DNA from: Polytrichum commune
Taxonomy: Eukaryota; Streptophyta; Polytrichopsida; Polytrichales; Polytrichaceae
Direction of reading: 5' to 3'
DNA length: 64,000 bases
Assembly: GCA_950295325.1 (NCBI GenBank)
Contig: OX485809.1
Location: 19,358,144-19,422,143, forward strand
A program made the position numbers and the translations under genes. Below are positions 29,543 through 63,580 of the stretch, piece after piece. The notes under the pieces were generated by a model. The model saw only the letters and a program-made list of their open reading frames with translations. It ran no database searches and was not told where the DNA came from. Every line of letters begins with the position of its first letter. The stretch's first letter is position 1.

Positions 29543-29844
29543 GTAAGTGAACATGTAAGTGCCATGAGCCACTTCCTGGAATGTTGTGCCTTAGTTCTTT
29601 GCAAGTTCTCTATGGCAAGAAATTGACTGTTTGTAAAGTAATGATATGTAACGAGCGACCACTATTGATTGGATTCATTCATGAAGTTAGAACATGTGAC
29701 TGATATTAGTAATGACATTAGCATATGTGTCTTCTCACAGTCATAGAACTTGAATAAGTGCCATGAGCCTTCAGAAAGTAAATCCTTGTATAAAAGCAAC
29801 AATTTAGTCCCAACTGATCCGTGTTTTGTGGTTTTATTATGATT
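29543..29844 (+). other. Left part of the last TNPA intron
   Basis: Intron sequence between exon 6 and the insertion point of the 19.9-kb element. Its end (TCCCAACTGATCCGTGTTTT, then GTGGTTTTATTATGATT) parallels the end of the preceding intron (TCCCAACTGACCCTTGTTTT), which supports the insertion boundary. Confidence 0.7.
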
Positions 29845-29873
29845 AACACTATATTCGGTATTTGGAGACTTTT
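29845..29873 (+). repeat. Left TIR of the 19.9-kb transposon
   Basis: Begins AACACTATATTCG and ends GGAGACTTTT. The same terminus occurs at 55177. About 410 bp of transposon sequence without genes follow before the LTR fragment. Confidence 0.85.
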
Positions 29874-30287
29874 TGTTGATTATGAGACTATATAAGGATG
29901 CACATTTCAAAATTGGACCGGTAATGACGACTAAAAATCCCATATGTATAATGGTATGCTACTATTATTATACATAAAGGCATGGAAGTGAACAAAAATG
30001 TGAGGCATACATGAAAATAGTTGCGTATGAAAGACAACTCGTTATGAATGGAAGGGAAGATGCGAAGAATGAATGGAAGTTGAATGAATTAATTGGAATT
30101 GAAATACAATTATAATGGAAATACCATCAATGTCTTGAGTAACTTGCAATAGCATAGAAAGTAAGCACTTAAATATGTTCTACACCTAAGCCCATTTAGG
30201 GAGTCCGTCCCACTAGTACGCTTCTAGTCACACTAGTCCGACCCACTATTTTTTTTTTGCGGCTAAGTCCTTTTTTTTGGCGGCCTC

Positions 30288-33200
30288 TGTGAACCCTTTG
30301 AGTGGTCCACCACTCTGCGGGATCACTTTTAGTTAGAATGTTAGCATTAAAAGTTAGAATTGATAGGGAATTTAGGAAAAATTAGTTCATTTAGCATTTA
30401 GCCTAGAAGAAGGAAGGTCAAAATGAAACTAAGTAGTGCTAGAAGATAGCAAAGTAGAAAAAATGTGCTAGCTAGTAAAAACAACTAGCTAAGCAAATAT
30501 TAGTAGATGCTAGCTATTAAGCAAATGTTAGTAGATGCTAGCTGTAGTAAGTTTTTGCTATGTCTTTTAAAACCAAAAACCCAGGGAACTAAGGTCTCTA
30601 GGAAGACTGAGCTAGTGTCTATACGGGTTATTGTCACATTGGATTAAGGATTAAGTTAACAACTTAGGACCATTCTTACTTTACTTCTTTATTATTCCAC
30701 TTGATCATTCATTCTTAAGGTTCATTTGTGCCTTTTCCGTAGTGAGTGAGTCCGTCCTATAATAAGGTAGTTTTTCTACGTCGCTATGGTTTTGACCTAT
30801 GTTAGTCGTGAAGCTCAAAAGCTTGGCAAGTTGGCATGGCAATTAGTCAGGACGTCGTCCGGGGTAGCGTCTTTGAGTAACCACATCGTCTTGAGTATGC
30901 GGAAGATAAAACTTGCAAATTCCTTAATTAATTCCTTATTACCAACTTACCCGCCTCGTACATGTCTTCATGTGCCCAAGTCACCATCTTAGTCTTCAAC
31001 CATCTGGTGACTCATCTCAACAGCCATTCACTTGTTAATACAAACATAATGCATTCACAGCTAGGCGATGTTCTTCCTTAAGGCTTTAGTCCTCTATAAA
31101 CTAATCAATCAACATACAAAGGGTAAGGTCTTACTCCAGTAAGATATTCTTTCCTTCAGGGGAAGGTACCGCCTTGACAGCCTATAGCCTGCCTCTAGCC
31201 CTTCCATCTTTCATGCTGGCCCTTGCCTAGCTTTCCTCTTCTTTCCTTCTCTGACACACTGACCAAAGACTGGAATTTTGGGCCACTCGCCCAGGCGATG
31301 GCCTCACTCTAGCCTCCCTGGCTTTCTCTCTTCCTAAGACTATTGCCCTTCTCGGCTGGCTACTAAACAGCCTCTTTAACTTCCCAGTCCTCTCTGTAGA
31401 CCATGGCCATCATCTCTCTCTCGACTTGGCCTTTTGCCTGGTCCCACTGGTCTCGGCTACTAGCCTTTGGCTAGGACGATTGCCCTTCTTGCTTCTCGTC
31501 AAGCTTTGCCTAACTTGCCTTCTTCACGACAGGCTGTCTGTGTCCGTCAAATTCTCTCTCTCTCCCTCTCTCTCTGACCAGTTGCCTTGCCACTCTCTGG
31601 CCTTCTACTAGGCTATTGCCACATTTTGATTTGGCTCTCAGTCGCTTCTTGATTCTTCAGACCATTGCCTCTCACTCTATAACTTCTCAACCTTTTCCAC
31701 TTTTCTTTAATCACCCACACCGAATCAGTCTTGCCTTGCTCAATTACAAACCTCTTCTCAGCCTATTTGCCTGATTTTGACATTACAATGCTAAGTCAGA
31801 TTACTTGCTCAAACTCACTTTCCAAATATCACTCACGACATTACACATCACTTACTTCAACAATCCTCTTCACTCATAAGACAAACAATTACACATAATA
31901 CTTCACTCATGATCATCTCATAATCATCCCATTAACACAAAAGAGATAAGTCCACTTCAGGGTCCAATTGTCTCAGCCCTATAACTTCCTAACATTGTCA
32001 TTCCAAGCTTCCTGCTTGTCCAAGACTATTGCCTGGCTCAATCACTGAGCTACAGACTTCTACGCCTATTGCTAAACTACGGTGAGACTACGTCAGATTT
32101 TGCTGTTTGCAAATAGCCTACCTTCTTTCCTGTCAGCCTCCTCCTTAGTGCCGAGAGAGACGACTAGGTGGTTAGCCGTCGTAACTAATTCTTGACGGAA
32201 ATTGCCTGCATTCATCCCTCTGGATGGCTACTGACTGCCTATTGCCGGATGAAAGACGTTAAAATTCAAGATTTGTCCTTTATAGACGGGTAATGGCCAA
32301 AAAATCGGTACTACACTAGCTAAGCAAGTGTTAGTTTATTAGTTAGTGTGAGGCACACAAGACTATTGGAGGTGTTTTACGTAAGAAGATAAAATCGGCG
32401 TGAAGAATTTTGAAGACAAAAAAGAAAGAGAGCAAGGGGGATACTTGCCCACTTGCCCCCTTGCCAACTCGATGGCGGAAAAATTAGAAAGATTTCTAAA
32501 GGTTTTTTGTCGGAGCCACCTCGGCGAGAGGGTGGCAACCTCAACCGGGAAAACCCCCGAGCCAAAATTTCGGGAAAGGGTTTGAAAAATGGATCCGGTG
32601 GAGGAGGGGTCCAACCCTTTTGTGAGAGGGTTTAAAAACCCCTCCTTCCACCTTGTAGCTCTCTTTCTTTCTCTAGTTTTTGGGCGAAGCCCTGCTTCAA
32701 TGTAGTTAGGAAAAAATCCTTTAGCATGTATTCTCAATGGTCTAAAAGAAAGACTTGAGAACCCCCTCTACTCTCTCTCTCCTAGTTAGGTTGTGTGTTT
32801 ATTAACACACCAACAAAATTATTCCTTCTTTTGTAGAGGTAGGTTGGATGGTAGAGTTTTGAGTAGAGGCATTATAGACCTCATCTGCCAATGCCCTGAA
32901 GGCTTAGTTCAAAAGCTAGAACAAGATACTTATCATTTTTCTCTTAGAGAGATTTCATATAGCTATCCATAGCCGTTTCCCATTTGTGATTTGGTTGAGA
33001 TGACAATTAGTTATGGATTTTCAAAGATGGAGTAGAAAAACTGGGTGGTCTTGTGGGTAGCGGCTGCTGGATCAGACCTGCGAGCCCAATAGGAATTTTA
33101 ATTCCAAGAAATTATATTTTTCCCAAGTAGAACTTTTGTGTAGCTTTCCAAAATGGCTTAGAACATTTGATTTGAGCATGATTTGAATTAGATTTGAATT

Positions 33201-34904
33201 GTGCAAGATGGGACACATAGTTTGAGAACTTTTGGTTGACTGCTGCATTACAGAGGACCTGCTGGGTTCACTTCGGCTTACCTTTCTAATCACATATTTT
33301 TATCAAATACATATTTTTAATATCTCTCCAGGGTCATATAGAACGTTTGATTTGACTAAGATTTGAATTAGATATGAATTGTTGAAGGCGAGATACATAG
33401 TTCAAGCCTTCTTGATTGACTGCTGTGTTACAAGGAGTCCGCTGAATTTCTATTAGCTTAACCTGCTGATGTCATAATTTTTCTAGTTAGAGCTTGTTCA
33501 TAGCTTTCCAATGGTATAAGGAAAGCCTAGATCCAAGTAGTAAGGAATGTGCTATGAATTCTTGAAGTTAGAAGGTAGATAGGTGGGTTGGAAGGGTCGG
33601 TTGAATCGACCTCACACTTCCAACCCTCATAACTTTTGCATTTCTTATCCGATTAGAGTGATTTTTAGATCATTGGAAAGATAATTTGGTGCACTAAGTA
33701 TAAATATTATGCTTAGGATTAAATTACAGGGCAGAATAACACTTTATATTTTAATTGTTAACTAAGGTACGCTTACTACCAAACTAGTTACAAAGAAGGA
33801 GGCAAGGTCGACGCTCGGAAAGTGGAGCAAGGAAGGAGGTAGCGGCTCGGCCTACATCAAGCCCAAATCAACCGAGGAAAATTGAGGTAAATTAACTAAC
33901 CTTAAGCCTTCCATTTAGGATTGGAGGGAGCACGGCTAAGGTACGCATCTCTAAACCCACTCACCTATCTCGTAAGGTCAAGTGGCTTGACCACTTGACC
34001 GCCAAGGGAGTACCCAATTCCATTGTTTTCGGGGCCCTTGGTATGTTTTGTGGTAGTAGCTTCATTTATTAGCAAGTTTCGTGTGTGGTAAGTCGGATTA
34101 ATCACCGACACGACCACTCTGAATGTTGTTGGTGGAAAGGTGGGGTTAATGACCCGCGAATCCACTATTATGTTGTTGGCCCCATAGATTGGGAGTAATG
34201 GCCCCAATTTATGAAGATTGCGCAACAGGTTGAACCTACAGGTCGCCCGTCACCCTGGTCCCATTGAGTTGCATTTCGTGGTCTATCCAGTGTAAACACA
34301 TTTAACAATCAAAACATACCAAATAAATCGTAAACCCTTGTTGGCAAGAGACCCGAGGTAAGGGGTGATGCCTAATATGTTAATGTAGTAAGTTAGGACG
34401 TGCAAACAAAAGTAAGTAATTAAGAAGGAATTTGTGTGAAGGGTGGGACTTAGGCCAAGTTCCCCCGCTTAGAAAACTAAATAGAACTAAATAAAGAAAT
34501 AGGAAGAATTGAATGGTCCATCAAATTGTCGTTATTCCGTTCGTTGAGTTAGGGTGGTATGAGTCACACCCGGTTGGGTGTATCAGAACCATCCCAATTC
34601 ACAAATTAGGATTGCCTTGGTTTCAAGGCTGGTGCGTCTGCGCGTAGAATAGGTTGTAGGTTAAGGTTAGAACTAGATATGAAATTCGTTAGTGGAGTTT
34701 AAAGCCACACTAGTAAAAAACTAAGGCCTAACCTCCGGAGGTACTACGACGCATATTTAATCTCCCTTAAAAATCTAACTACTCACGTTATACACCTATC
34801 ATCCGGGTTTGGCTTGGGCGCCTGCAAATGCAGGCCACCTTCACCGAAGGGCTTGTGTGATACTTTTAGGCTCCCTCGAAAGGGGGTGGCCCAAAAGTAC
34901 CACA
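30288..34904 (+). mobile_element. Gypsy LTR fragment with nested solo LTR (LTR-A)
   Basis: Inverted near-copy of 56168-59006 (paired coordinates sum to 91072 over most of the length, with a few-base indel near 32400). It ends CCACA at 34904, a true LTR end, but lacks the first 234 bp of the LTR, so its left edge at 30288 is a break. Without the nested insertion it would be 2,839 bp. No primer binding site follows, so it is the 3' end of an element. Neighbouring pentamers differ (GCCTC, ACCGG), so it is not a simple solo LTR. Confidence 0.85.
30543..32315. mobile_element. Solo LTR of another retrotransposon, 1,773 bp
   Basis: Starts TGTAGTA and ends TACTACA, the TG..CA inverted ends of an LTR. 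It is flanked on both sides by CTAGC (30538-30542 and 32316-32320), a 5-bp duplication. The host LTR copy at 56168-59240 lacks it and shows the uninterrupted GATGCTAGC/CTAGCTAAG type sequence. The interior is CT-rich and has no coding region. Confidence 0.88.
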
Positions 34905-35561
34905 ACCGGCGTGGACAACAAGCCTTCTAAGGTAAGGCGCTAGCGTATCGACCAAAAACGTGTCGTTCCTATCGCCGGTCCAAGTGGCGGGGAAGATGAC
35001 GTTCCCCGGGGGGTTCAAGACGCTTTTGGTGGGGCTGTCGTCGACGAGGACGGTGTTCTCGGGGGTCGGCCACCACCCGTGGGGTACCCCCTGCAACCGG
35101 GGGATGCCCCGCCACAGTCTTGACCTCAGGACCTTGAGGAATTGTTGTCCTCCGCCACGACCGCCGAACTTTGGAACCGGCAGACCCTTTTCGTCGAGCA
35201 ATTCATCGCAATCCTCTTGGCCGAGGATGAGGCAAGGGCTCGGAAGATCGCGGAAGAGGAAGTCGACGATTGGCTCGGTGTTCTCCATGACCATGGAGCT
35301 CCACACAATGACGTGAGCTACATCGAGCACCTCTCGAAGGAAGTCACGCAGGCCGGAACGGGCGCGGACAACCTTGCGGTTAATGAGAGTGTCGAGCTCT
35401 CCGTCGTAGTCCCTTTCGTCGGGGTGACGGAAGGGACGCGTGAGGACCCGGGGGATGTGTTCGGTGTGACACAACACCCCGTTCAGGTCGAACACGACGA
35501 ACGGTTTGTTTCGGGTAAGACGTCCACTGGTCGAGGGTTTCCGACCTATCTCCGGGGGATC
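34905..35561 (-). pseudogene. FCP1/NIF-type HAD phosphatase-like fragment
   Basis: A 219-codon exon-like frame, opening after a CACAG acceptor-like site and cut off by the LTR end. It has HAD phosphatase motif I as VVFDLNGVLCH, the VWSSM serine motif, and LVDDSPTKSVLNPPGN for the C-terminal acidic motif, as in NIF/FCP1-like plant proteins. Motif I reads DLN rather than DLD, so the second aspartate of the catalytic pair is replaced. The 3' end is missing and no start codon is seen. Whether it is a captured host exon or a cargo gene of the transposon cannot be decided. Confidence 0.7.
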
Positions 35562-35998
35562 CTGTGATTAACAACTCGACTAGTTTAATTCTATGATCTA
35601 ATAAACAACATTGCATTGAGGAAAAGACGATTATGCGAGGAAAATAGTGCAAGGAGAATGTGGTCAAGTGCAGACTTGCGAACGAGCGTTCGTGAATGAA
35701 GGCTGGGGTGGCGCATCATTTACGAACGCTCGTTCGTGAACGCGGATAGAAGCACATGTACGAACGCTCGTTCGTGAAGGAGGGTGAAAGTGGGCGTGAA
35801 AGTGTAATGATGCGCATGAACATACATAATACAAGATGCGATACGATATAATAAGTTTGGGAGATGCGACGCAGAGATCATCTGCTCATATATTAATTCG
35901 GTGAATATTTACAATTGTCTCACGTGATAATTTTTCACAGTTTCCTATGGCAAATACATGCCGTGTTCTACAAAATTTCTCGGGCTAAGGGTCAAAAT
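35562..35998. other. Gap between phosphatase-like fragment and companion gene
   Basis: No gene. Three dyads (about 35678, 35722, 35760) lie here, the leftmost of the array. The companion gene's stop codon is at 35999-36001. Confidence 0.6.
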
Positions 35999-38900
35999 TT
36001 ATCGGACTAAGGGTCCACGTAGAGAAGGGTCCTCGCACGCCTCGTGATGCTGATGGACAGGAACCGCCAAGAACACAACGCGCATGGGTTAGTGGTTACG
36101 AACGCGCGTTCGTCAAATGAGTGGTATTCTCAGAGGAGAGTTACCTCGTCATCGGGGGGAGGGGCAGCGGCGCTGGACCGAGCAGTTCCCTCCTCTTCGA
36201 TTAACGAACGCGCGTTCGTAATCCCCATTGGGCCAGCCGCCTCTGTCTCCATGGCGTCTGTGGCACGCTCCGACTGTGACGCCTGGGTCTGCACAATGTG
36301 ATCCGCGTCGTCGTCGTCGTCGTCGTCATCTCCGCCCAGGTCGAGAGTGTCCATGCGGACATCCTCCATCTCCGCGGATGGATGCCGTTCCAGGTCAGGG
36401 CTCTCAACGTCCATTCCTTGGACAGCTGCCGCGTCATTGGGGCTCCCCTGCGTTTCCTCCACAATGATCATGTCAGTGTGTTGCGCAGATTCATCGCCCT
36501 GCCTATGCACTACCCTCGGGACGACTGTCAAAGAGGCGGTGGCAGTGACTGAGGCCAGTCCTACCCTTGGAGGGGGAGGGGTTAGGACTGCTGGACCTGA
36601 AGATTCACGAACGCGCGTTCGTAAATCTTCGTCCTCGCGTATGGCAGCCCTTATCGCATCGTCCGAGTTGAAGGGGGTGGCAGTCAATTGAAGGGGCGGA
36701 GGACTCCCAGCTGGCGTTGGATGTGGTGTTGGTGGGTGCGAAGGTCCTCCGGGGAACAGGCCTGGAAGGGGGGTATGGGAGGGGTATCCTCCAGGGAAGG
36801 GGTAAGGCTGTTGTGCTGGCGCCGAGAAGCTCTGCATATTTCTGAGCATCTCAAATATGGCGTCCGTCTTTGCTGCGGACTCCCGCAGCGCCTCCTGCAT
36901 GTGGGCCATATTTCTTGCACTCTCCTCTGCCGCAGCCGCCATTTCCTCCTTCATTTTTTGCTCTAGCTTGGCATTCAGCTCGGCAACCGTCAACGCCTCC
37001 TCCTTCACACGCTTGTTCTTGTCGTAATCCACCCCCAGCTCCGCCATGATATCCATGTCCCCTTCGTCCTCGTCGGACACCTCGATGATTGCTCCCTCCG
37101 GCAACTCCACGTATGGCGTCTTCTTCATCCTCCTCCTCGTGTTCCGGAAGTGGTCCAAGGATGGACGCGAGCGTTGGTCGAGGAGGTCGAGGGTCTCCAT
37201 CCTCGGAACCACGACGGGCCTGGGAGACACTGACGTCGAACAGCCGCCAGGTGTGCCGAAGGGTTCCGCACCCGACACTCTAGCGGGGAGGACATCCTGG
37301 GTTGTCCCAGCCGAGGATCATGTATAGCCCCCCGGTGTCCCTTGGGGGTCAGACGGGTGACCCGCTGGCGCCAACATCCGTAAAGGAGTGATGTTGAACG
37401 ACTGCAAGATGGCGTCCACGTCCACGTCCACGGAGGGGGCGGGCTCGTCCTCGTCTGTCTCCAAGCCCGGCATGCCTTCGTCGACAGGCATGCTGAAGTC
37501 CTCCCTGGGGACACACATGTCATCGAGGTCCATTGTGGACGCTTTCACCCTGTGGACCTGGTATTCATCCTCGTCTTGGGCATCAACGTAGTTATTGACG
37601 ACCAACCCCAGCATCTGTACCAACGTTCCAAACATGTCAGCATATACGAACGTGCGTTCGTAAACATCAACATTGAGACAAGGCCAGATCAACGCAAAGG
37701 GAAAAAATGCCACAACTATTATAACATTTGAATCAATGACAATTACGAACGAGCGTTCGTAAATCTAAGAATGACAGCTTACCATGGCCGCGTATATGAA
37801 CTTGCTGCCTCCAAAGATGTTGTAGACGGTCTCTCCACTGATTGCCAAACTCTGCAACACTGACACGTAGAACTCCAACCTAAGCTCCAACGCGGGGAAA
37901 ACCGTGTACAGTGTCTCCTGCAACAGTTCCTTGGGAGGGGGGTGAGGGATGTTGTATATCTTCTTGAAAGTACTGTTTGCCTTCACAGGCGCTCTCCCAT
38001 TTCTGAGAGCATTGTACGTTAAGAAGATCAAGCTGACAGCTCCCACCTGCTTGTTGCCCCTGGCCTCGTTGATGGCCATGATCCTTTCCGTTTTTGCAGG
38101 CACGTAGGTGCAGTGGTAGATGCTGTATTCAAATTTGATGGTATTTTCGTACAGCTCAGTGACAATGGATAGCTTCTCCTGTTCCACTATCCAAAGCCAT
38201 ACGTGAGGCTCCCTCATTTCAGGCGATCTGTAGTCTTGAAACTTTGCCATGAAAGGGTTGTAGAAGGGAAAATCCTTTGCCCCTTGCCTCGCACCTCCTG
38301 GGATCCCCCTGAAATCAATCAGGGCAAATGGGCAACCCCTGCGGTCCTCCCTCACCTCGGCCCTGCTGATGGTGCCGTCCCACTTAGAAAAAGTGGTCCT
38401 CTCCAGCCCGGTGGTTACCAAACAAAACCTGGCCACTCCCTCGAATGTGGCCCTCCGCTTCCTCTCCAAAAACTTTATATACAACTCCACCTCCTGGGGA
38501 TCTGTCTCTGCTTTCTTGGTCCGCTTGTTCCCCTTCAGCTTCAAGACGGAGGCGTGTTCCTTAACTAGCCTACGCATGGAAGAGCCGTTGATGTTATACC
38601 CGACCTTGAACTCCTTCCATCCAGCCCAGTTGATGTCCCCGTCGGCCTGGAAGAGTTTGTACTCCGGGACTAGTGCGCCCAACTCCCTCATTGCGTTGGT
38701 CTTCAACTTGCGATGTTTGCACCACTCCTTGATGGAGTACGTTCCGGGCCTGTGCTTTGGCCTCTTCAAAAAAATCTTCGGGTAGGGGATTGTTCTCCCG
38801 ACGGTGTTCCCAAGAGCATGAACTGCACATCTCTGCAATTCCGACTCCGTCAACCCCTGAAGCGGCCTAAAAAATTCCCTCAGCAGCGGAGGCGCTTCCC

Positions 38901-40520
38901 CAGTCTTCTCCTGATTATATTTTTCTTCAGTGTCGGGGTTGACGAGATCCCCCGCACTGTGAGCATCAAAAAATTGGGTCCACAAATCCCAGGTGTCTCT
39001 GTTGCAACAAATAAGCCGGAGCTCACCCTTTAGCTCGAGCACTGACTTCGTTGAAGTGGACTTCATGTCGATGGAAGAGAATTTGTCCACCATCGCATCG
39101 CAAAACGCCTGCATTAGAAAGGAATGTCATCGGTCAATCAAATACGAACGCACATTCGTAAATAAAATGATCAGGAATGTTCTAAAGGAACCTGAGAATT
39201 ACGAACGCTCGTTCGTAAACTTACCTTCCATTGTGGAGACTGGTTTTTCGCATTCTCCCTCTCCTTTGGTGGGCACCCGTGTGCCACCCACACATCTCTC
39301 GCAGCCACTATGTTTGCTGCCCATGATGCCTCAAACGCTTTGATCTTATTCCCAGAATTTAAAAATGTCGAAATTTTCCGGAGTTTGTCCCAGTCGTCTG
39401 ACCACACCAGGAACACCTTCCAGTAGCGCAGGTCCCCCTTCAGCTCATGCTGGAAATTATCATCCTTGAGGATGATCTGCGATGCCTCCAGGCTGTGCTG
39501 TCCATCAATAATCCAGAACTCCCCATTCTGGATTCTTGCCCAATCTTTCTCCGTGGGACGGGAAGTGAAACCCTTTGGCATAACGCACACAGTTTGCCTA
39601 TCCCACTTCACGTTATTCATCAAGTTGTTGATTTGCCACTTCACACCTCCGCTTTCACGTGACCTCACCACCCACTTGTTGGGGGATTTCTCGCATTTGA
39701 AGCAGTCCACGTTGAAGGTGAAGTGCCATCCCATGGGCCAGCAATCCTTCGAGTAATTGTTGAAGTCGCGAAGGATACGAGTCGCCTTTGCCGCATCAGG
39801 GTTTTCCCCCTTCTTCAAAGGGGTCGGCATGACAGGCGGCGAGTTGACCTCAGCTGTCTCCGTGACACTAGACTTCTCCATATCGTCCCGAGTTCTTTTA
39901 GATGGCGTGGAGTGTCTGCTTGGCCCCTCTGACAATCTACTAGTTGAAGGCACTGGCCGCGGCGCACTTCTAGAACCTCCTGCTCCGGATGCAGTAGGTT
40001 TTTTGGGACTCTTCTTCTTCTTGTTGGCCTCCACGACGGCATTGTTATACTTGGACATATTTAGGGCCAGTGCAGTCAACTTCCTAGCTGTCCAATGCTG
40101 GCTGAGGCTGTACTTCGTGAAAAGGTTCACGAGGTCGAAATGCTTGGCATCCTCTACAACATTATTCTGTGCGTATGTATGGGAGAAAGGGTGCCTCCTG
40201 AAGTCCAGCAGGAGGTTGATGTGGTCTTTTTTGTTTTTCAAATCCAAGATAACAAAATCACCCTGTGCCTCTATGGATTCTATCTCCCATGTCTTCATCT
40301 GCACCCACTGCTCCGGCTGGTCTGGCCTTGTCTCCAACTCGTATGTGAATCTCAGGGCGAACAATCCACCCTCGATTTTCTCCGGGAGCGCCGTCCACTC
40401 CCCCATGAAGTCATCTTTGGGGACGTAATTATCGTTCCCATTGTCATCTGTCACTGACTCCGGAAGCCGATCCAACTGAACCGCGAACATTTCGATTGCG
40501 CTCCTTACTGGTCTAGCCAT
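35999..40520 (-). pseudogene. Transposon companion protein with IIDGQHS motif (4 exons), one in-frame TGA
   Basis: Join, minus strand: 39225-40520, 37783-39108, 36145-37614, 35999-36049. All introns are GT-AG in phase 0, giving 1,381 codons. I start at the ATG of MARPVRSAIEMF. Exon 1 has a basic linker (ANKKKKSPKK) and then FWIIDGQHSLEASQIIL, with a following SDDWDKLRKISTFLNSGNKI segment. This resembles the DGQHR-type motif of the ParB/sulfiredoxin-like fold by eye only. Exon 2 is a long unrecognised domain (VARFCLVTTGLERTTFSKWD). Exon 3 is acidic, then coiled-coil (ELNAKLEQKMKEEMAAAAEE) and proline-rich. TGA at 37318-37320 interrupts exon 3, though coding character continues on both sides. 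Every intron contains one or two dyads, and a dyad lies 34 bp upstream of the ATG. The short last exon (HHEACEDPSLRGPLVR) is the least certain. Confidence 0.75.
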
Positions 40521-41009
40521 CTGCAATGTAACAGACACATTCAGAATTGCATTTACGAACGCGCGTTCGTTACTGGCATTTGCAGGTCGTCAATAAATTA
40601 TTTATTATTGGCAAGACATCTGTTGGTTCTTGTTTACGAACGTTCGTTCGCAAATTTGGTTTGATTTCCAAGGTGTTATTCATTTTCAATAAATACGAAC
40701 GCGCGGTCGTATTTGAGTGCTGTGATGTTCATATGGCGTAATCAAAAGGTGTAGGGTTCGTTTTTATTTTCATTTTTTGGGCTCATTTTTATTAGTTTTT
40801 GGGTACACATATTTGTGTCCATGCCTTTGTGTAGATTTACGAACGCGCGTTCGCAAATCTTGGGTGTGTTTGGATCCCTGGTTACGAACGATCGTTCGTA
40901 AATCTAGGATATTGATGTGATTCAGTGTTTGTTCACGAACGGACGTTCGCAAATACAAGATGTTCCTTATTTAATCAATTACGAACGCACGTTCGTAAAA
41001 GTAGAAGGT

Positions 41010-41225
41010 GAGCGCGTATTTTACGAACGCACGTTCGGAAAATTAGAAGGTGAGTGGGTATTTTACGAACGCACGTTCGTAAAGGTGGAAAGTGAGTGGG
41101 TATTTTACGAACGCACGTTCGTAAAGGTAGAAGGTGAGTGGGTATTTTACGAACGCACGTTCGTAAAAGTAGAAGGTGAGTGCGTATTTTACGAACGTGC
41201 GTTTGTAAAAGTAAAGGGCTTGGTG
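41010..41225. repeat. 42-bp tandem repeat, each unit with one dyad
   Basis: About five units of TAGAAGGTGAGTGGGTATTT followed by the dyad with CA in the centre. It lies between the divergent companion and transposase genes. Because 42 is a multiple of three, both strands stay open through the array, but that is a by-product of the repeat. Confidence 0.9.
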
Positions 41226-41762
41226 TATTAGATGTATAAACGCCACATTTACGAACGATCGTTCATAAATGTGGTCGTCTGTGTATGATAATAAATGTTT
41301 TCCGTACATATACGGATATGTATACATACGTATGTATGTATGGGTTTATGAATGTTGCTATCGACATTGCTTGGATTTCTGCCTGCAACTCTTGATCAGA
41401 ATGATGAAACACAAAGTGAAATATGTAATGACAACAACATTGAGATTCAGTGATTAAGAATTCATAATGAAGGGGAAAGTCCTAATTCATACAAAACATG
41501 ACAAAGCTCATAATGCATAAAACATGACACATGGAATTCAACAAAGAACAATTTCAGATTGCAAAGAAGTGTTTTGAAAAGGAAACCTGTACTCACATTG
41601 AATTGTTGCAAACCCAAAACCTGCTGCCTGCTACTCAGAAATCCAGAAACCTCACAAATGCACTGATTTCGCTTTCAAATGCAATTTCTACCCTCGCTCC
41701 TTTCTCACACTCTCAAGCCTTCAGAATTTATTTACAAATCCTACAAATATTCTGATGTAAAC

Positions 41763-41990
41763 ACAACTCACAAGCTTTCTAAAACTCTCAAGCTCTCAAG
41801 CTTTTTGCAACACTCAACCTCTCAAGCTTTCTAAAACTCTCAAGCTTTCTAAAACACTCAACCTCTCAAGCTTTCTAAAACACTCAACCTCTCAAGCTTT
41901 CTAAAACACTCAACCTCTCAAGCTTTCTAAAACTCTAAACCTCTCAAGCTTTCCAAAACTCTCAACCTTCTCAAGATTTCTACAAATATC
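41763..41990. repeat. About 26-bp minisatellite
   Basis: Roughly eight units of CTCTCAAGCTTTCTAAAACA followed by CTCAAC, decaying at both ends. No function is apparent. Confidence 0.85.
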
Positions 41991-42209
41991 AACCTCTCAA
42001 GCGATCCTACTCTCAAGCTTCTGACAATGCGCGCCAAGAATAAACATAAAATGCGGCTATACAAATGGCCAGGGCTTCGCCGCACCTAAGCTCTCCCCTC
42101 CTCCTCTGCTCCAAATGACAAATGAGGAGGAGAGGAAGAGGCGCGGGGAGGTAGCCGGCACCGCTAGGGTTTCCTGGCGGCTGCCACGTGGCTGACAGCC
42201 ACTGGCCAG

Positions 42210-42290
42210 GGCTGGGATGGGGATGCGGATGGGGATGGGGATGGGGGAGGGGAGGGGATGGATGGGAGGGGAATGGGGATAGGGAGGGAT
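42210..42290. repeat. G-rich GGGGAT repeat
   Basis: Irregular runs of GGGGAT and GGGAGG units, with four or more G-tracts in close spacing on the plus strand. It could form a G-quadruplex. It lies between the companion and transposase genes. Confidence 0.7.
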
Positions 42291-42454
42291 GAGGGTTTAC
42301 GAATTAAGAAATACGAAATGGTGGGAGCTTAGTTCGGGGACATGAATTTTACATTCCGTATCCCCTGAATACCTCTACAGTTGGATTCCTTGTAAACATA
42401 TTTTAGAAAAGTATGTTCAGTTAATTTGTACAACACAATGCATGTCATTTAGTA

Positions 42455-42670
42455 GGTTTTCGATGAAGAATCCATCCCAATGTGTGTATGGTGTTTTGCA
42501 AAATAGAGTTTTCATGAACCACACATCCTTAAAGTTGTTCAATGGTTCCTCAAACAAATTTTACATACATAAAGGACGCATTTTGAATTGTGGAGAGGGG
42601 CTATCAGATTCTCCTCAAGAGGTGGGGGAAAATTCATTTTTCAATACGATGTCATTAATTTCATGAGGTG
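42455..42670 (+). repeat. Diverged direct repeat, copy 1
   Basis: About 220 bp similar to 43545-43770 in the same orientation; shared pieces include TGTTCAATGGTTCCT, GTATATGGTGTTTT-like and GTGGAGG.AAATTC-like sequence. The Tourist-like MITE lies between the two copies. No coding function is seen. Confidence 0.6.
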
Positions 42671-42739
42671 TTAGCTTGACCCACCCTTAATATGATATTT
42701 AGTATTAGATACTCTAAATACGAACGCATAGTACACTAA

Positions 42740-43266
42740 GGGCATGTTTAGACTTGGGGCCAAGGCCATTGTGAACAAAGGCCAATATGTCCCATGTGGC
42801 ATGCAAATGGGCCCCAAAGGCCATTAATAAGAAAGTAACCTAACTCCATTCATTGCTTTCATGTGTAAACCTATTTAGGTGGGGTTGGGGCCATTTGGAG
42901 GTTGCAATTATGAGAGGGTTATGAGAGGTTCCAACGTACTCATGAACTATTCTATGGATAATAATTAAAGTATAATAAATTTAGAATTTCTCCCCTCCTA
43001 CTCAATGCTCAAAGAATAAACTACTATAAGCGAATAAAAGCTCTAACAATGGCCTCAACAAGAGGGAAAGAGTCCACAATGTTGGGAGCTCTCTTTTCCA
43101 AGGCTTGAGGCCATTGTCATGATGAATAAAATAATTTATTTGTGATTGGCCCCAACTCATGGTGTAAACTTGAAGAGGAAAATCCTAGCCTTTCTACCAA
43201 TGAGAGGCGTGGATTTCTTTCACCCCAACCCATTTTTGAGCCTTGACTCCAACTCTAAACCCGTCC
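42740..43266. mobile_element. Tourist-like (Harbinger) MITE, 527 bp
   Basis: TAA flanks both ends (42737-42739, 43267-43269). The ends are imperfect inverted repeats of 28 bp (21 matches): GGGCATGTTTAGACTTGGGG on the left, GGACGGGTTTAGAGTTGGAG read inward from the right. TAA duplication and GGGC-type ends fit Tourist MITEs. It is non-coding. Confidence 0.75.
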
Positions 43267-43340
43267 TAAGTATCACTAACGATCTAAACCCTAAGCCCGC
43301 AAACCACATATTAGACAACTTTCACAAACCATATACACTA

Positions 43341-43373
43341 ACCCCAAACCCCAAACCCTAAACCCTAACCCTA
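43341..43373. repeat. Interstitial telomere-like repeat
   Basis: A short run of CCCCAAA and CCCTAAA units. It is too short and too diverged to be a chromosome end. Confidence 0.75.
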
Positions 43374-43544
43374 CATCTTTTTATTTTACCAACCCTTCTT
43401 AGGAGGTCAAGTCATTTAATTAGTTGTCGACTTGAACTAACAAACGAATACTAGTGCCATCAACTTTAAATTTCACCAATGATCAATTGCATTTAAACTT
43501 GTAGTTCATAATATGGTCCGATGTTTGGCGAGCCTCAAGTGTAG

Positions 43545-43770
43545 GGGGTGGATTCAAATGAAAAATCCACCCGCAAGCATGTGTATATGGTGTTTTAAAA
43601 TATAATTTTTTCATGGACAATATGTCTTTCAAGGTGTTCAATGGTTCCTTAAAAAAAAATTATTGGATAAAGGACTCAATTTCATATTGTGGCGAGCCTG
43701 CGCTATCCTAAACCTTTACAAAAGGTGGAGGAAATTCTATTTCTCATAGGACGTCAAACACATGATATTA
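43545..43770 (+). repeat. Diverged direct repeat, copy 2
   Basis: Partner of 42455-42670. From here to about 44700 the sequence is AT-rich with no recognised gene. Confidence 0.6.
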
Positions 43771-44812
43771 ATAATTGTAAGTGTGACTTCACGTAGGCAT
43801 AGTTTCAATTCTTATCATTATCGTATGCACCGTTCCAAAGTGATTGATCATTTCCAATCATGCCATTTTAATTCATTATTTTCAAACCTAGTGTTACATT
43901 TGAATGAAGACCTTACCTACATATATTGGGTATGATTACTTCAAAATGTCCTCAATTTACCTAGTACAAACCATTATGGATTAAGCGACTTTTTATTGGT
44001 ATTCATGCAGTTGGTGACCATATTACGGGCATTTTTTTTATGTAAATCATATGATACCTACAATTTTAGGGGCTTCCACAACATGTTTTTAGCTACTCTT
44101 ACCTCATTGTGTGTGTGAATATGTATTACCCTAAACCCTTCATCACTTTATTAGGTATAATCAATCATCAATTAACTTGGACTTCACACCTTAGTTGCAA
44201 ATCATTTAAATTCAATGTTAACCATAAACCTATATAGACATTATAAATCTAATATTATATATATGTGTATATATAATCTAATATTATATTATATACAATA
44301 TGAAATTCATATATACATATAAATATAGACATATATCCACGTGAGACCTTGGTGGCAACTAAGGTGTGCGACCGATTGACATATTTACAATATGTTGCGT
44401 GCATGCAAGACATGTTCCATACATAATGCTATTTATTTATTCCGCATGGATGGAATGACATATTGTTAGGTCAAAGTAGGCGGCGGGAATCCGCTTTTTA
44501 AATAGCATCCAAGGGATTTTGAACCATCAGGGGGGAGGTACTTAAAGCTCTTCCCCCCACATCAGAGCTCTTTTCTGCGGCACAACCAAGTGTGCGCTCC
44601 ACAGACCTGACTGGAACGAGCACAAACCATTTTCTTGTGCGCCCACCCTATACCTCCCAGGTACACAATAGGTTGCACATACCCGCATATACCGCCGCAA
44701 ATACCGGACTTTTACGAACGCACGTTCGTAAAGATGACTTGGTAGCGACATGTGATGCGAGTGGTTTAGACATGTAGTTTAGACGAGTGGTATAGACGAG
44801 TGGTTCAGACAT

Positions 44813-45290
44813 GTGATGCGAGTGGTTTACGAACGTGCGTTCGTAAGTAGAGCATTAGACATACTCAGCGTAGATTTACTTACAGCTAGTCATAGGCACA
44901 AAATGTTCAATTATATACGAACGTGCGTTCGTATATATTTCCTTCCAGATACAGGCGCACGTAAGTTGTTGTGATGCGAGTGGTTTACGAACATGCGTTC
45001 GTAAGTAGAGCATTGGACATACTCAGCGTAGATTTACTTACAGGTAGTCATAGGCATGAAAATATTCAATTATATACGAACGTGCGTTCGTATATATTTC
45101 CTTCCAGATACAGGCGCACGTAAGTTGTTGTGATGCGAGTGGTTTACGAACGTGCGTTCGTAAGTAGAGCATTGGACATACTCAGCGTAGATTTACTTAC
45201 AGGTAGTCATAGGCACGAAAATGTTCAATTATATACGAACGTGCATTCGTATATATAACGTGCGTTCGTAAGTAGAGCATTCGATAATAC
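44813..45290. repeat. 158-bp tandem repeat, two dyads per unit
   Basis: Three units, starting GTGATGCGAGTGGTTTACGA at 44813, 44971 and 45130 (periods 158 and 159), plus a partial fourth. Each unit has two dyads with TG in the centre. It lies 0.9-1.4 kb upstream of the transposase start codon. Confidence 0.9.
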
Positions 45291-46180
45291 TCCACGTTGA
45301 CCTACTTATAGGTAGTCGTGGGCGCTAAAATGTTCAATGATATACGAACGTGCGTTCGTTTATTTTCCTCCTAACCCTCAAAGACACCTACGCTCCCATG
45401 ACTCTGTTATGTCCAACTGAACATATGATGGTCTGGTATTCACGAACGTGCGTTCATAAATATCAATTGATATTATTTTGCCATTATACAGAAACATCCG
45501 TTCATTTATGCACATGCCTCCTACTACTACGCTATAGATGTTTCTTCTGATGGGTCAACATTTTTACAAACACGGTTAGGGCTAGAACACATGATTGATC
45601 GTTCGTATGCATACGCCCATATGTTTCGGCTAGGACTTACGAACGATCGTTCGTATACATACACCCTTGAGTTTAGGCTCTACCTTGGGTTCGGTCGTTC
45701 CTAGATACACACCCGTCAAAGACATGCCCTTCAATTACGATGCTTGTTGCATGTGGATAATGATGCAGGTGCATTTTAGGTGCTCCTGAGCAATGCACGT
45801 TGCTTATCCCTTTTACAATTCATTGTTTGTTGGGTTGATGTTCTCGTCCGCGCGTTCGTGAATATATGTGCGTATGCTCTCCTTTGTTGGTTGGCAACAC
45901 TTCCCATGTTTTATTAGCAAATCGACCCAAAACCCTTCACGGTTAATATGTACCACAATTGCATGCCGTTGTCCATTGGTGTGTGACTCCCACGTAGTAT
46001 TTGCTTGTCATGGCGTTGTTTTCGAACGCACGTTCGTCTTCATATGTGAGGTCCCCCAACGGTGCCGCGAGAGTTGTTTGTGTTTTTTTAGCCATATATC
46101 TACACAGCTCTCGTTTTCGCTTTTGTGTGCATTGCGGTGCTTCTTGTTTTGGTCATTGATTAGTGGTTTGCTTAGGTTGG

Positions 46181-49100
46181 ATGGCGCTGCCCGTGGCATA
46201 TAGTTCATTGGAGTTGTCCACAATTTCTTCCTCCTTCGATGGTGAGTGTGAACTTTCTTCCCCTTCGGCGGGTTGTAATGGTCTGCCAAACGTGATGGGG
46301 GAGTTTGTGGATACATCCTCCCATGAATCTTTAGAAGTGCACGAACAATCTCTACATTCCAGGGATGACCACGATGACATTCCGTTGTGTGCCGGTTTCG
46401 GGAGGGAGCAATGGGTTGGCCTTGATGTCGTCCTACTCAACGACATTGGTGTCCCTGTGGCAGATGGCATATGTAGAAACTCTGATCCCCGTGATTGTGT
46501 GGATGCCAACCCCCTTGGTCCGAACGATGTTGGTGTGTGCATCTTGAATTCATTGCTTCCGCTTGAGGTCCCGGTGACATGGAGATTTTCCTTGCGTCGA
46601 TGGCCTTTTTGTCGGGTTCTCCATGACGGAGTGAGCTTGTTGGACCATGAGCGGCGCCATAAGCAAACACAATTAGCTTTGTTGGCCAAAATACGTCCTC
46701 GCAAAGGCCTACGCAAATATGATTCGAACCGTGTGCCTCGAGGAGATAAGGAGCGTCGACGGGATCACATATTGGGAGACGAATTTATCCGTCTTGTGTC
46801 CGCCAAAGACTGTTGCTATCGGAAATGTTGCCAGTTTTTCCCACGGGAGAAAATTAAATCCCTACGTCAAGAGATGTGGCTGGCCGATTTCCGTATGAGA
46901 TCGGCAAAGAAACTCGAGGTCCATAGAAATGTGCACATTGACACCCATGGGCATAAGGTGGTCACACTTGAGAATGTGGATGTGTGTTGTACCGCGTGGT
47001 ATACCATCCATGCCATGTCAAAGGCTGATTTTTATAGGTTTCAAAATTATTCATCGTTGGGTCGCCGCTCACGATTTCATGGAAATTCGGGCACAAAGAA
47101 ACCTCGGGAGGCTACACTCCAAGCCTCCGCGACACTCTCCACCATCATAGTCCCATTGGCCGATGCAATGCCCCACAAGACGAGGACATTGTCGTCAGGG
47201 GAGAAAGTTGTACAAATGGTGTTGCCCACAGGTACAAAATGGAAGAACATATTAACGGACATTAACGAAGTGGGTCGCATAGCGGGATGTGGTCCCATTT
47301 CTTTGTCCAAGTTGAGTGTAATTAAAAACCAACAGTTTGCTGAATACATTTTGAAGAGACCTGGGGATAAGTTCGCTAGGTGTACGACGTGTGAAAAATA
47401 CAAAGGTCTTCGAGACGCCCACCCCATAGGCACCGAATCCCACTCCAGACACCAAGCAAAATATATTGAACATGTCAACAACCAAGAGGCTCACCGTCAA
47501 GATTACTACAAGAACCGTGCTCTATCCATAATGAGGCCTACAGAGGTTCTAACAATCATCCATGACAAAATGGACCACGCCAAGACCGCATGCCCTTGTT
47601 ATGCACGGAAAATAAAGGCCACGGATGGACTCTTCAAGTTGCCCGTAGCTGTCACAGGTTTGTAGGAAATCACAAATATGTGTTCAAATTCTATCCAATT
47701 TTACTAGATGTGTTTGCGTTAGGTTTCAACTTCACACATCCGTTTAGGGTTGTTGTTGTTATTGTTGTCATTCATGGATCGTTTGTTTTTTCCCAGGGAT
47801 GATTGCCCACGGACATGGAGACGTTAAGTATGCCCATTATGGTCTGGATTTTTACCCTGGCGATGCTAACCACACGGTGGGATCATTTGCAAAACTCTTG
47901 CGCGATCTTGAGAAGCCACCGGTACATTCATCACGTGCATTGTTTGATGGTTGTGGAACGACACCCCTTTACGAAGCACTGCTTGCGGGGAAGGAGGTTT
48001 GTATGTCGTCATTGCCGGAGCCACCCGGAGAACCTCTTTGTGCGAAACCTTTGCCTCCAACTCTCCATGTTCAACTTGATAATTGTGCGAAGGACAACAA
48101 ATGTCGATATGTATTTTGTTTTTGGTCCTTGCTTGTGGCGAAAGGAATCTTCAAGGAGGTGTTTGTGTCTTTCTTGATGGTGGGATACACACACGATGAC
48201 ATTGATGCGTCTTTCGGACGGTGGAGCATGAAGTTGCATGAAGAAGATTTTCCAACCATACCACTTCTTATGAAATCGTATATGGATTTGGACCATATGC
48301 CGGTAATTCCGCACATGATTGAGGAAGTACCAGATTTCAAGGCCTTCATCAAGCCATACATGTTGAAGGGAGGGGACCGTTTGGTGGGACATACCAAAGC
48401 ACAACAATTCTGATTCTTTATAAGGGATGATGGTCTCCCGGCCATGCAATTTAAGCTTTTGTGCACATCTCCTAATTGGGGCCCGGATGATGGTATACTC
48501 ATATGGCGTCAAGACAATGATGGGAAATGTTTGCTCCCGGATGGGGATCCAAAGCCTTGCAAACCCGACCCCATGAGGAATGGGCCGGAAATCATCAAAG
48601 GCATATCCGGATTCATTGAATATTGGAAAGAGTTGTGTGAGGAGGACATCACTAGACGTGTTAGAGATACTCATGAACCTTTTATTGCGTATTGGGATCG
48701 CATTCGCTCGGCCCTAATGACACTTGGTGGCGACACCCGTACAACTTTAACACAAGGATTTTGGCCACAAAGCCGTTTAACGGTTGTCGAGTCCGACACC
48801 ATGTTTTTTAGCAATGGAGACGTTCGTGAAGAGTTCGCAATGGACGAGCATTACGTTGGCCCTGCCCGAGATCGACCGGCACCGTCGTTTCGTGTAGGTG
48901 TTGATTGCCATGAAGGTTATTTGGTCCTCGTACGAGCAGGGGATGAGGAGCATCCCAAGCCAATTTGGTTGGTGAAAGCATTGTCTTCACCCAATTTTGT
49001 TCGAACTAGCCCCAACTTTCGTCAAATTGAGGTGGAATATTGTCGTCCAAGCACTAAAGACCAAAACGTGCTACGCACTTATTTAGGTTGGGACACCAAA

Positions 49101-49316
49101 AAGAATTTTAAGTGGACAGTGGACTCAGCGTACACACCGGTTTGGATAAACACGGATACTATACTTTGTGCTTGGAAGCCGCGCAAAGGTTCCAAAACAG
49201 AAACAATGACCATCCCCCAAAAACATATAGATTTTGCCAAAGACAACTTGGCACGTATTGCAGCTGCGGTGAATGACGCCGTGAATGGATATGAAGCGGA
49301 AGATGGAGATGTGTAA
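46181..49316 (+). pseudogene. DUF7869-like transposase (2 exons), one in-frame TGA
   Basis: Join: 46181-47657 and 47797-49316 (CACAG|GTTTGT donor, TTTCCCAG acceptor), 998 codons. I start at the ATG of MALPVAYSS; a dyad ends about 140 bp upstream. The N-terminal part has a cysteine-rich KDCCYRKCCQFF motif, MWLADFRMRSAKKLEVHRNV and VDVCCTAWYTIHAMSKADFY. The RNase H-fold core shows IIHDKMDHAKTACPC (about residue 462), LHVQLDNCAKDNKCRYVF (about 582) and VGYTHDDIDASFGRWS (about 620), the pattern I know from DUF7869 transposase-like proteins. The C-terminal third has a small beta-rich module (GYLVLVRAGDEEHPKPIWLV). TGA at 48411-48413 (codon 698) breaks it, with the frame continuing as FFIRDDGLPAMQFK. 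Without the TGA it would look functional. Confidence 0.82.
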
Positions 49317-49693
49317 ACATAACATATTAGGTGGGAGTTAATGGCGAAAAATATGGGCGCTTAGTAGACTTGGTTTTTATTAGACTTAGTGGACTTGTCA
49401 CACTCCATTGTTGTATACGTTTGGGATGTGCCATCCAAATTCATAAGAGCCTTACTTATGGGATGCGCACCCCAAATTCTATAATGACATAAACCAATTG
49501 TTTTCTCAGAGTTGATTGTTATTTTCCACAAAGAGCTCACGTTTTCATTTTAATTGAAATTCTCTATTTTTAGTAATAAGAATATGCTTTACGTGCGAAA
49601 TTTCAAATCGTCATGTTCTTGATGTTCCCAATATTCCGTATGCCCACAATATTGGCATCCCAAACCATGGGCATATTTTATTTTGAGACTTTC
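49317..49693. other. Right end of the 19.9-kb transposon, non-coding
   Basis: Sequence between the transposase stop and the right TIR. It has two related segments (GGGATGTGCCATCC at 49424, GGGATGCGCACCCC at 49459) but no dyad of the ACGAACG type and no gene. Confidence 0.6.
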
Positions 49694-49722
49694 AAAAGTC
49701 TCCGATTAACGAATATAGTGTT
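49694..49722 (-). repeat. Right TIR of the 19.9-kb transposon
   Basis: On the minus strand begins AACACTATATTCG and ends GGAGACTTTT, with three differences from the left TIR. It is followed by GATT and the intron end ATAG. Confidence 0.85.
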
Positions 49723-50039
49723 GATTATAGGTTGTACAAGAAGGTGAGGACCTGGAGTTCAAGAAGGGTGATCCTGTGAGACTCAAGGGACTTTTAGAAG
49801 GGGAGGAGGATAAAGTTGTGGCACTCGGGAAAGTGCAGAATGTAGCTGGTGCTTCTCTACACGGGAGAACCATAATTGCAGGAACCGTGTCTGTAGAAGT
49901 GTCGAAAAGCCTAGATGACGACTACGGTTTGTTTGCACCTCTAGATCTAGACGATCCACCCGTGACCTTGGTAGGACAAGCAGTAGGGCACTTTGTAATG
50001 TGGCCCACAGAGTTCATGGACATTGATTTGTCCTGCTAG

Positions 50040-51068: not shown

Positions 51069-51293
51069 CAAATAACCAACCAAATTTTATTACTCACCGC
51101 GTGTTGAGAGTTCATGTGAATATTCAAGAAGTGAACACTAAGGCAGATTTTGAAGTTTGGGATGGAGTAAGATATGAGGTGATACTAAGGATGGCGTGGC
51201 TTAAGAAAATGGACGCATGGATCGCATGCAAGGAAAGAGCAGTCCACGGAAAGCTTTACAATGATAAATTATTTTTTATAAGAGGCAAGAGAT
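51069..51293 (+). pseudogene. Ty3/gypsy protease fragment
   Basis: Reads NQPNFITHRVLRVHVNIQEV, ADFEVWDGVRYEVILRMAWL, then KKMDAWIACKERAVHGKLYN and FFIRGKRS, the protease end of a plant gypsy polyprotein. Its N-terminal side abuts the CACTA terminus and its C-terminal side abuts the inverted repeat. It is on the plus strand, opposite to the gypsy remnant at 10999-13832, although it would be the missing upstream part of such an element. Confidence 0.8.
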
Positions 51294-55176: not shown

Positions 55177-56167
55177 AACACTATATTCGGTAATTGGAGA
55201 CTTTTTGTTGATTTTGAGACTATTTAAGGACGTGGCTTTCACATTTGTAGGAAGGAAAACACTAAAAATATGCTATGTTCCCAATTTTGGAAACAAATAA
55301 GAGACTCAAATGCATGGAACTACACATTAAAAATAAGAAAATGGGATATATGAAAACATTTGCATATGGAAAATCAATATCATATTTATTGAATAGGGGT
55401 TGAAGTACAAAATGCAAGTGGAATATCCAATATTAGGCGAAAGTCCTAGAAACATAATTCCACAACTACATGTATGTTAATATAGCCTATACGTTCGGAT
55501 CATGATTACGACTCACTACTTTTGCTTTGGCAATACTATTATTAGCATTTACGGCCGTTTCACGTTCTTTTGCTTTCATGGCCTCCATGGCTCTAAAGAT
55601 CTCGGGTCCGCGGCTGTAACCTTGTTTATTTGTCGACCCCGAATATGTGTCATTTGCCCATATTTGTCGACCCCCTACCGAATAAGTGGAATACGAATGC
55701 ATTTGGGAAACCGAACGTCTTGCACTCTTCCGTAGGGCCAAACAACGATCAGACTCGCAGGAAGCAGTCTTCAGTGTTCGCCTATCCAATGACGAAGTCG
55801 AGGATGAACAGCCCACATTCATGTGTATTGGGGTCTGAAACAATGAACATAAATACATATAATGACGTGGGTTAGTATAAGTTACGGATGGAAGTCCGAA
55901 AAACCCAAGAATATGAAATCCACTAATGCACGGAAATCATGAAGGAAAAACTTGAGATTGCCAATAATTGGGCACCTTGGCCTGCGGGGCGGTGGTTTGA
56001 GCTTCTGCGACATCGAGGGGGGCCACAAGCACAACAGGGACGCTCGTAAACGCCGGGACATCAATTTGGGGTTCATCCATACAAAGGCGTCTGGTCGACC
56101 GCGGGTTTCAAACGTGCTTCTCATTGCGGAGGGGAGATGGAGATGGAGCGTAATTGAGTTTTGCAAC
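55177..56167. mobile_element. Left end of a second DUF7869-type transposon
   Basis: Starts AACACTATATTCGGTAATTG, then GGAGACTTTTTGTTGATT, matching the terminus at 29845. Similarity to that element fades after about 60 bp, so it is a different family member. It interrupts the 3.9-kb repeat and is itself interrupted at 56168 by a gypsy LTR; the rest lies outside the window. Its first 300 bp hold no gene. Confidence 0.75.
55487..56080 (-). CDS. Small two-exon protein of the second DUF7869-type transposon
   Basis: Join, minus strand: 55952-56080 and 55487-55834, phase 0, 158 residues from ATG to stop. Exon 1 is MDEPQIDVPAFTSVPVVLVA and so on to VPNYWQSQ; exon 2 begins TPIHMNVGCSSSTSSLD and has a basic LRKSARRS patch and a helical charged end (FRAMEAMKAKERETAVNA). 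I do not recognise it. An in-frame stop upstream of the ATG supports a real start, but a further 5' exon beyond the LTR insertion cannot be excluded. Confidence 0.5.
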
Positions 56168-59100: not shown

Positions 59101-59240
59101 ACCACCACTTACACATATATTTTTTTTTTGTTTTTTCTTATTATTACTTGCACTTTTATCCGTTTAAAGATGTGAAGAGGAGAGAGAAAAGAAGAAGATA
59201 GTACTATACTAAAGCCAAAAAACACTTCAAAGCCGCCACA
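56168..59240 (-). repeat. Gypsy LTR-B (3' LTR), 3,073 bp
   Basis: On the plus strand it starts TGTGGTACTTTTGGGCC and ends CCGCCACA, so the ends form TGTGG..CCACA. The end is fixed by the adjoining polypurine tract. LTR-A at 30288-34904 matches it except for the last 234 bp. Confidence 0.85.
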
Positions 59241-59250
59241 CTCCCCCACC
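59241..59250 (-). other. Polypurine tract
   Basis: On the minus strand GGTGGGGGAG lies directly before TGTGGCGG, the start of the 3' LTR. It primes plus-strand DNA synthesis in LTR retrotransposons. Confidence 0.7.
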
Positions 59251-59536
59251 GGACTGGGTTTGTGTCTATCTAGGACACCCCCTCCGCCTTGCGGGAGCAA
59301 CTTGGAGCTATAGAAGAAAAAACTTTCAACCCGCTTCCTTCCTCTTCGGAGAGAGTTCGGACTACAAGAGCAATTCCCAGGCGCTGAAGAAAGAAGGTCC
59401 CCCTACTGGTTTCCTTCAAACAATGACCACGGAGGGCCGACCTCTAACCTAGCACCTATTGCAGGAATTTGAAACCCTCCGCCTTTGCTTTGGGTCTAAA
59501 GGTATCACATCGCATTTAATCCGCTAGTTGCACCTG

Positions 59537-63442: not shown

Positions 63443-63557
63443 AGCACAAGTGGCCCATGACGTATGACTAATTTCTATTGGACTAAACTCTTCTTCTCTT
63501 AGTCTAAACGTATAAGTACTCAAAGAAATATCATTCGAGCATGGCAGGGGCATCCAC

Positions 63558-63580
63558 CCTCCCGGCAGACGCACCAATTA
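63558..63580 (-). other. Primer binding site region
   Basis: Just inside the 5' LTR the minus strand reads TAAT then TGGTGCGTCTGCCGGGA, which has the TGG start and layout of a tRNA-complementary primer binding site. I do not identify the tRNA. Confidence 0.65.

Follow-up and report, generated by a model that had tools for sequence, protein, structure and literature searches.

The question raised by this locus is how a large companion gene and an array of palindromic dyads are connected with the transposase gene beside which they lie in a DNA transposon. The transposon occupies positions 29845-49722 of the window, that is, of the whole 64,000-nucleotide stretch analysed from contig 7 of the Polytrichum commune genome (407.8 Mb, 64 contigs). 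It belongs to a family of DUF7869 transposons in which, by analogy with a known system, the companion protein probably binds the dyads of its own subfamily, marks them and most likely keeps the element expressed. At the level of sequence, the family is recognised by its ends, its target duplications, the linkage of its genes, its dyad arrays and the match between dyad type and companion clade. The ends are given by the following features, where TIR is terminal inverted repeat.

29841..29844, no strand: target site duplication GATT, left, in the sequence flanking the element
29845..29873, plus strand: left TIR, 29 bp, starting AACACTATATTCG, 26/29 identical to the right end without gaps
49694..49722, minus strand: right TIR, 29 bp, from the exact 13-bp end and the 29-bp alignment
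49723..49726, no strand: target site duplication GATT, right, in the sequence flanking the element

The sequence AACACTATATTCG is found exactly at 29845 (plus strand) and at 49710-49722 (minus strand), and the alignment score of the two TIRs (48) was reached by 4 of 5000 random 100-bp pairs drawn from the window, for which the 99th percentile was 32. The first-pass annotation of this DNA had proposed a DNA transposon with these TIRs and GATT on both sides, and had noted that taking the element out rebuilds a proper intron end as in the sister intron; excision in silico reproduces this, and the defined ends and the rebuilt empty site are confirmed. A second copy of the family begins on the left with a third exact TIR in the window, at 55177.

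55177..64000, plus strand: second family copy, left part (exact TIR, ATCT duplication), continuing past the window to about C7:19440122

The right end of copy 2, outside the window, also has the ATCT duplication (L034). Its left flank (51293-55176) is an inverted copy of 20292-24175 (3,884 bp, 99.97% identity), and the match ends exactly one base ahead of AACACTA. Because of the position of this breakpoint, the AA is taken as part of the element and the duplication as 4 bp long; a 6-bp duplication TGATTA with a TIR starting ACACTA, permitted by copy 1 alone, is ruled out by the same breakpoint. Empty sites are available for copy 2, on the 20292 side of the window and at L036 on contig 4, and filled and empty states are directly comparable. 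The inverted duplication 20292-24175/51293-55176, of which contig 4 (L036) holds another, nearly identical site, may in itself be a segmental duplication or an assembly effect. Both window copies (29845 and 55177) lie shortly upstream of a likely intron 3' splice site, which in two cases may be chance.

Beyond the window, the exact 13-bp end is present 776 times in forward and 807 times in reverse orientation (control, 3 and 10). The pairs that were read come from contig 1, out of the first hundred of its places listed, and were picked by orientation and spacing, not as a random sample; ten full-length pairs, with TIRs spaced about 16-18 kb, come from the first listed places of that contig. 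An exact 4-bp duplication of varying sequence (including AAGT, ATAA, GTAA, TATA, ATCT, ACCT, TTTT, CTAT, CCTA, and GATT) has been found in 26 of the 28 copies with both ends read, namely in 9/10 full-length pairs, 10/10 further pairs, 5/6 more, the window copy and copy 2, and is absent in copies D and V. The short duplication first noted as GATT is therefore a 4-bp one throughout most of the copies read, and its fixed length, together with the TIRs, is that of a cut-and-paste DNA transposon. In all ten full-length copies fetched, transposase, companion and NIF domain are present together and divergent, and each of the ten has, as the window element does, a dyad array, which is of either of two types. 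The earlier view of transposase, companion and dyads as one mobile system holds up well here; neither copies with other ends nor a failure of the two genes to meet between these TIRs was seen among the copies read. Both genes are stop-free across the aligned parts in copies A, D, G, and H, and the near-identity between copies (D/H 98.9%, E/J 98.0%, F/I 97.9%) points to recent movement.

The two genes of the window element are composed as follows.

46181..47657, plus strand: transposase exon 1 (inferred model from open frame and splice signals; relatives P0087 and P0088 92-93% identical)
47797..49316, plus strand: transposase exon 2 with DUF7869 (PF25273) and an in-frame TGA at 48411-48413; copies D, H, and K have no stop there
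39225..40520, minus strand: companion exon 1, with the IDGQHS motif of a predicted ParB/sulfiredoxin-like domain (open frame and structure prediction)
37783..39108, minus strand: companion exon 2, no family match in the Pfam scan
36145..37614, minus strand: companion exon 3, low-complexity linker with an in-frame TGA at 37318-37320
34866..35561, minus strand: companion exon 4, NIF/FCP1-like phosphatase domain (PF03031, E 6.5e-15), end lost to a long terminal repeat (LTR) sequence

The assignment of the first gene as DUF7869 transposase-like, made initially from motifs, is borne out by a match to PF25273 (E 3.6e-35; 121.7 bits vs a curated cut-off of 26), and the protein is predicted to have an RNase H-like core in which acidic residues are conserved, as in DDE/D transposases; this RNase H/DDE fold, the fold of the companion and the splice joints are all predictions. 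Named relatives of the transposase occur in Ceratodon, Physcomitrium, and Riccia. In the literature searched, no paper on DUF7869 and no described function were found, and the elements described here assign the family a definite role, that of a transposase whose ends are known. Searches with both proteins and A2 gave no relatives in viral contigs, and profiles of the companion and the transposase, run against PDB sequences, retrieved chance-level rows only. In the companion, a predicted ParB/sulfiredoxin-like domain and a NIF/FCP1-like domain are apparently joined by splicing. Its exons 1 and 2 had no named match in Pfam scans, and PADLOC and PHROGs scans gave only weak matches. In exon 4, DLNG replaces the usual DxD motif, and a Met upstream of DLNG is missing in 9 of 11 elements; therefore, NIF is probably an exon of a longer gene.

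The dyads are distributed around the companion gene. With up to 4 mismatches admitted, the window element has 35 sites of the form TTACGAACG-NN-CGTTCGTAA (25 intergenic, 8 within introns of the companion gene, and 2 in an exon), vs none in the rest of the window and none in each of 20 simulated elements.

40521..46180, no strand: region between the divergent genes, 25/35 dyads, partly tandem (40979-41217, 44812-45363)
39109..39224, no strand: companion intron 1, 2 dyads; contigs C269 and C243 of assembly G001 have a dyad in the same intron
37615..37782, no strand: companion intron 2, 2 dyads
35562..36144, no strand: companion intron 3, 4 dyads

The dyads at 40979-41217 and 44812-45363 belong to tandem arrays with unit lengths of about 42 and 159 bp, a pattern resembling spread by repeat expansion. 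Full-length copies carry 29-42 palindromes each, mostly in the companion introns and the intergenic region, and exons are avoided. The TTACGAACG type is that of the window element, D, H, and K, and a second type, TTTGGGTCG-NN-CGACCCAAA, is that of A, C, E, F, G, I, and J; no element has both (11/11). In the whole genome, exact sites number 3,737 for the TTACGAACG type and 9,731 for the TTTGGGTCG type (controls, 0). Other DUF7869 loci of the genome (L039-L042) have no repeated palindrome within 3.6 kb each, and in viral contigs single dyads were met in four, at one place each, which is background. Perfect dyad symmetry and arms that co-change between subfamilies would also be expected of base pairing, and the palindromes could in principle be RNA or single-stranded DNA hairpins (acting in splicing or replication, or as small-RNA targets) with no protein reader. 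This explanation is, however, very improbable: the arm sequence itself is kept within a subfamily (in sub2, 279/279 sites, admitted with up to 4 mismatches, are conserved at columns 2, 5, 18, and 19), a frame, TTNNGNNCG, is common to all repeated arms and recurs in different subfamilies, and the array accompanies a gene with a predicted DNA-binding-type fold.

The type of dyad also follows the clade of the companion. Among environmental companion proteins (13 plus 40 new), many of which read on into introns, 36/53 carry at least one dyad-encoded typing peptide vs summed shuffle means of about 1.5, and such peptides are absent from 120 transposase relatives (89,508 residues). The typing peptides imply a third arm, TTACGG[AC]CG. 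A search of the genome for this arm, known until then only through proteins, gave 1,385 sites (control, 0), the listed sites including runs inside elements L, M, and Q of the ten further pairs. The companion exon beside the first listed third-arm run (L085 and L086, which overlap and are one place) is 73-74% identical to P0125, a member of that clade, vs 40% and 31% to the others. When 38 exon-1 sequences of the companion are placed on a tree, the 27 rows that could be typed fall cleanly into three groups (11 rows are untyped), and arm type changes 2 times, the minimum, vs a shuffled mean of 13.0, a value as low being found in 0 of 200 shuffles.

Another example of this arrangement comes from a second source, assembly G001. 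The contig of L005 (CADCWO010000071.1, in a record named as a cyanobacterium) is, by content, probably plant DNA; it encodes a DUF7869 protein of 54% identity, with dyads TTTAGCTCG-ANT-CGAGCTAAA on both sides of the gene. In C269 and C243, from the same assembly, dyads TTCAGCTCG-ANT-CGAGCTGAA surround companion genes, one in the intron between exons 1 and 2 and another just past exon 2, and C243 has a NIF domain downstream of the companion (35.6% identity, E 1.5e-28). On a further companion contig, C74 (L083), a single palindrome TTATCCTC...GAGGATAA was noted, with an arm that departs from the G at position 5. The loci provide a natural series of protein/palindrome pairs that match each other, with at least three arm types in the genome and two more in the second source.

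These data are consistent with the following mechanism. The DUF7869 transposase, of DDE/D type, would act on the AACACTATATTCG ends and leave the 4-bp duplications; the divergently transcribed companion, a putative sequence-specific DNA-binding protein (ParB/sulfiredoxin-like DGQHS domain plus C-terminal NIF/FCP1-like domain), would bind the dyads in its own introns and between the two promoters; this binding would mark copies of the companion's own subfamily; and its most likely use would be to keep the element expressed, whether by anti-silencing or by activating its own transcription, on the model of VANC. The VANDAL elements of Arabidopsis encode a second protein, VANC, with short target motifs that build up as tandem repeats both within introns of the element's genes and ahead of the transposase gene; related elements have different motifs (PMC5735166). 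The same arrangement of putative target motifs is found here, and VANC proteins may be regarded, by this analogy, as the closest precedent for the companion. The systems differ in that the motif is here a 20-21-bp palindrome with a constant frame, and in the predicted ParB/sulfiredoxin-like plus NIF companion, the DUF7869 transposase and the 4-bp duplications.

Several points weigh against this mechanism. The agreement between companion and dyads cannot by itself say which protein binds, because transposase and companion are inherited together. The dyad types of the environmental companions are read from translated introns, and chance alone yields some peptide patterns in shuffled sets, with up to 0.6 occurrences per set; companion contig C74 (L083, L084) has no such dyads in the part seen. 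The structural model of the companion is poor overall (mean predicted local distance difference test score, pLDDT, 50.9), Foldseek found nothing for it at E <= 0.001, its 50 rows including no ParB, and libraries of hidden Markov models (HMMs) gave sub-threshold matches only. Phosphatase activity is doubtful, since DLNG has N in place of the second D, and anti-silencing by the companion is argued from analogy only.

In an alternative, the DUF7869 transposase itself would bind the dyads and use them for transpososome assembly, in the way of the subterminal repeats of many transposons. The transposase is linked with dyads in all ten copies read, and in L005 (4.3 kb) dyads flank the transposase gene with no companion on the contig, although on so short a contig the companion could sit beyond its limits. 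The position of the dyads makes this alternative unlikely: they are internal; those nearest to a TIR are 2.4-5.3 kb from it in D and H, and copies A, E, and G each have just one that comes within about 0.5-0.65 kb of one end. In addition, copy W (3.6 kb) has both ends, an ATGT duplication and transposase sequence only, with none of the palindromes. Another short copy, X (7 kb), retains 22 dyads and gene fragments.

The companion could also be an autorepressor like DndB, a protein with a DGQHR motif, and limit its own and transposase expression via the dyads. Salmonella DndB binds two TACGN10CGTA palindromes in its own promoter (PMC4507180), a likeness in the placing of palindromic targets in the own gene region, and the window dyad type fits this formula exactly. 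Autorepression of this kind is nevertheless improbable, as the subfamilies TTTGGGTCG and TTCAGCTCG have other arms, without TACG, the dyads fill introns across dozens of copies, beyond the need of a promoter operator, and the companion has no NCBIfam HMM match at E <= 5.

Returning to self-marking by the companion, a more far-reaching form of it can be put forward tentatively, and is doubtful in its entirety. The elements would form a new superfamily of eukaryotic DNA transposons in which a ParB-like, possibly nucleotide-gated clamp loads at the palindromes of its own subfamily (a eukaryotic parS counterpart) and spreads along the element, the C-terminal NIF/FCP1-like domain keeps transcription going against silencing, and co-change of companion and palindrome at arm positions 3, 4, 6, and 7 within TTNNGNNCG provides a series of self/non-self codes inside a single genome. 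The likeness to ParB-parS, Noc, and KorB lies in the tentatively predicted fold of the DGQHS domain and in arrays of short palindromic sites; the differences are that this is a eukaryotic transposon and that GQHS stands in place of the GERR-type motif of ParB-type proteins. The system would allow asking whether a ParB-like fold works on plant chromatin, and its hundreds of copies and sites make transposon self-marking and the co-change of protein and target directly testable.

As for known groups, CACTA/EnSpm (CMC) elements are likewise DNA transposons of large size in plants, and besides the transposase they encode a DNA-binding companion, TnpA, that binds repeats; they make 3-bp duplications and have ends starting CACTA. 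A C(2)C and H(3-4)H signature between the second and third acidic residues has been described for CACTA (PMC12730594). Membership of this group was rejected on the 4-bp duplication, on ends that start AACACTA according to the copy 2 breakpoint, and on the lack of either motif between those residues in 52 rows (0/52), with the third catalytic residue placed by deduction. Kolobok and piggyBac have a TTAA-specific 4-bp duplication (PMC9587614) and were likewise rejected, the duplications varying here (AAGT, ATCT, GATT etc.). Some fungal DNA transposons carry, as a further gene with a presumed action on DNA methylation, that of a TET/JBP dioxygenase (PMC12730594); the companion here is a different protein, with no enzyme of that kind. 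Among the papers listed in the literature searches, none was on such an element to judge by title, and those on ParB-like or sulfiredoxin proteins dealt, as listed, with prokaryotic systems or conflicts. The element is of a known kind as a DNA transposon, and the companion, the NIF fusion and the palindrome code are apparently new; the family is possibly a new superfamily.

The window copy itself is dead, with two stop codons and an LTR insertion. There is one in-frame TGA per gene; within the aligned parts, D, H, and K have no stops in the transposase, nor D and H in the companion, and given these copies an intron explaining the TGAs was dropped.

30288..34904, minus strand: nested LTR sequence, foreign to the transposon proper, matching the LTR at 56168-59006 with 98.4% and 99.6% identity

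The nested LTR cuts off the final companion exon (the NIF exon) and holds an extra 1.8-kb stretch (30544-32315) absent from the other LTR; by eye, it has no obvious 5-bp border duplication (flanks GCCTC and ACCGG). With an LTR nested in the window element and ten relatives read whole at 15,756-18,084 bp, the 19.9 kb is inflated: the coordinates first proposed stand, and the size does not hold for the family. The same annotation, right as to TIR, duplication, and DUF7869, lacked the companion domains, the subfamily dyads, the nested LTR, the dead state, and the second copy. Copy 2 also contains a nested LTR retrotransposon, with LTRs at 56168-59006 and from 63581 and a 1346-aa open frame at 59537-63577. 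Finally, the host of the insertion appears CACTA-like, with a TNPA-like gene (27056-50040) and CACTACAAGAAA at about 51068 on the minus strand, the single end seen.
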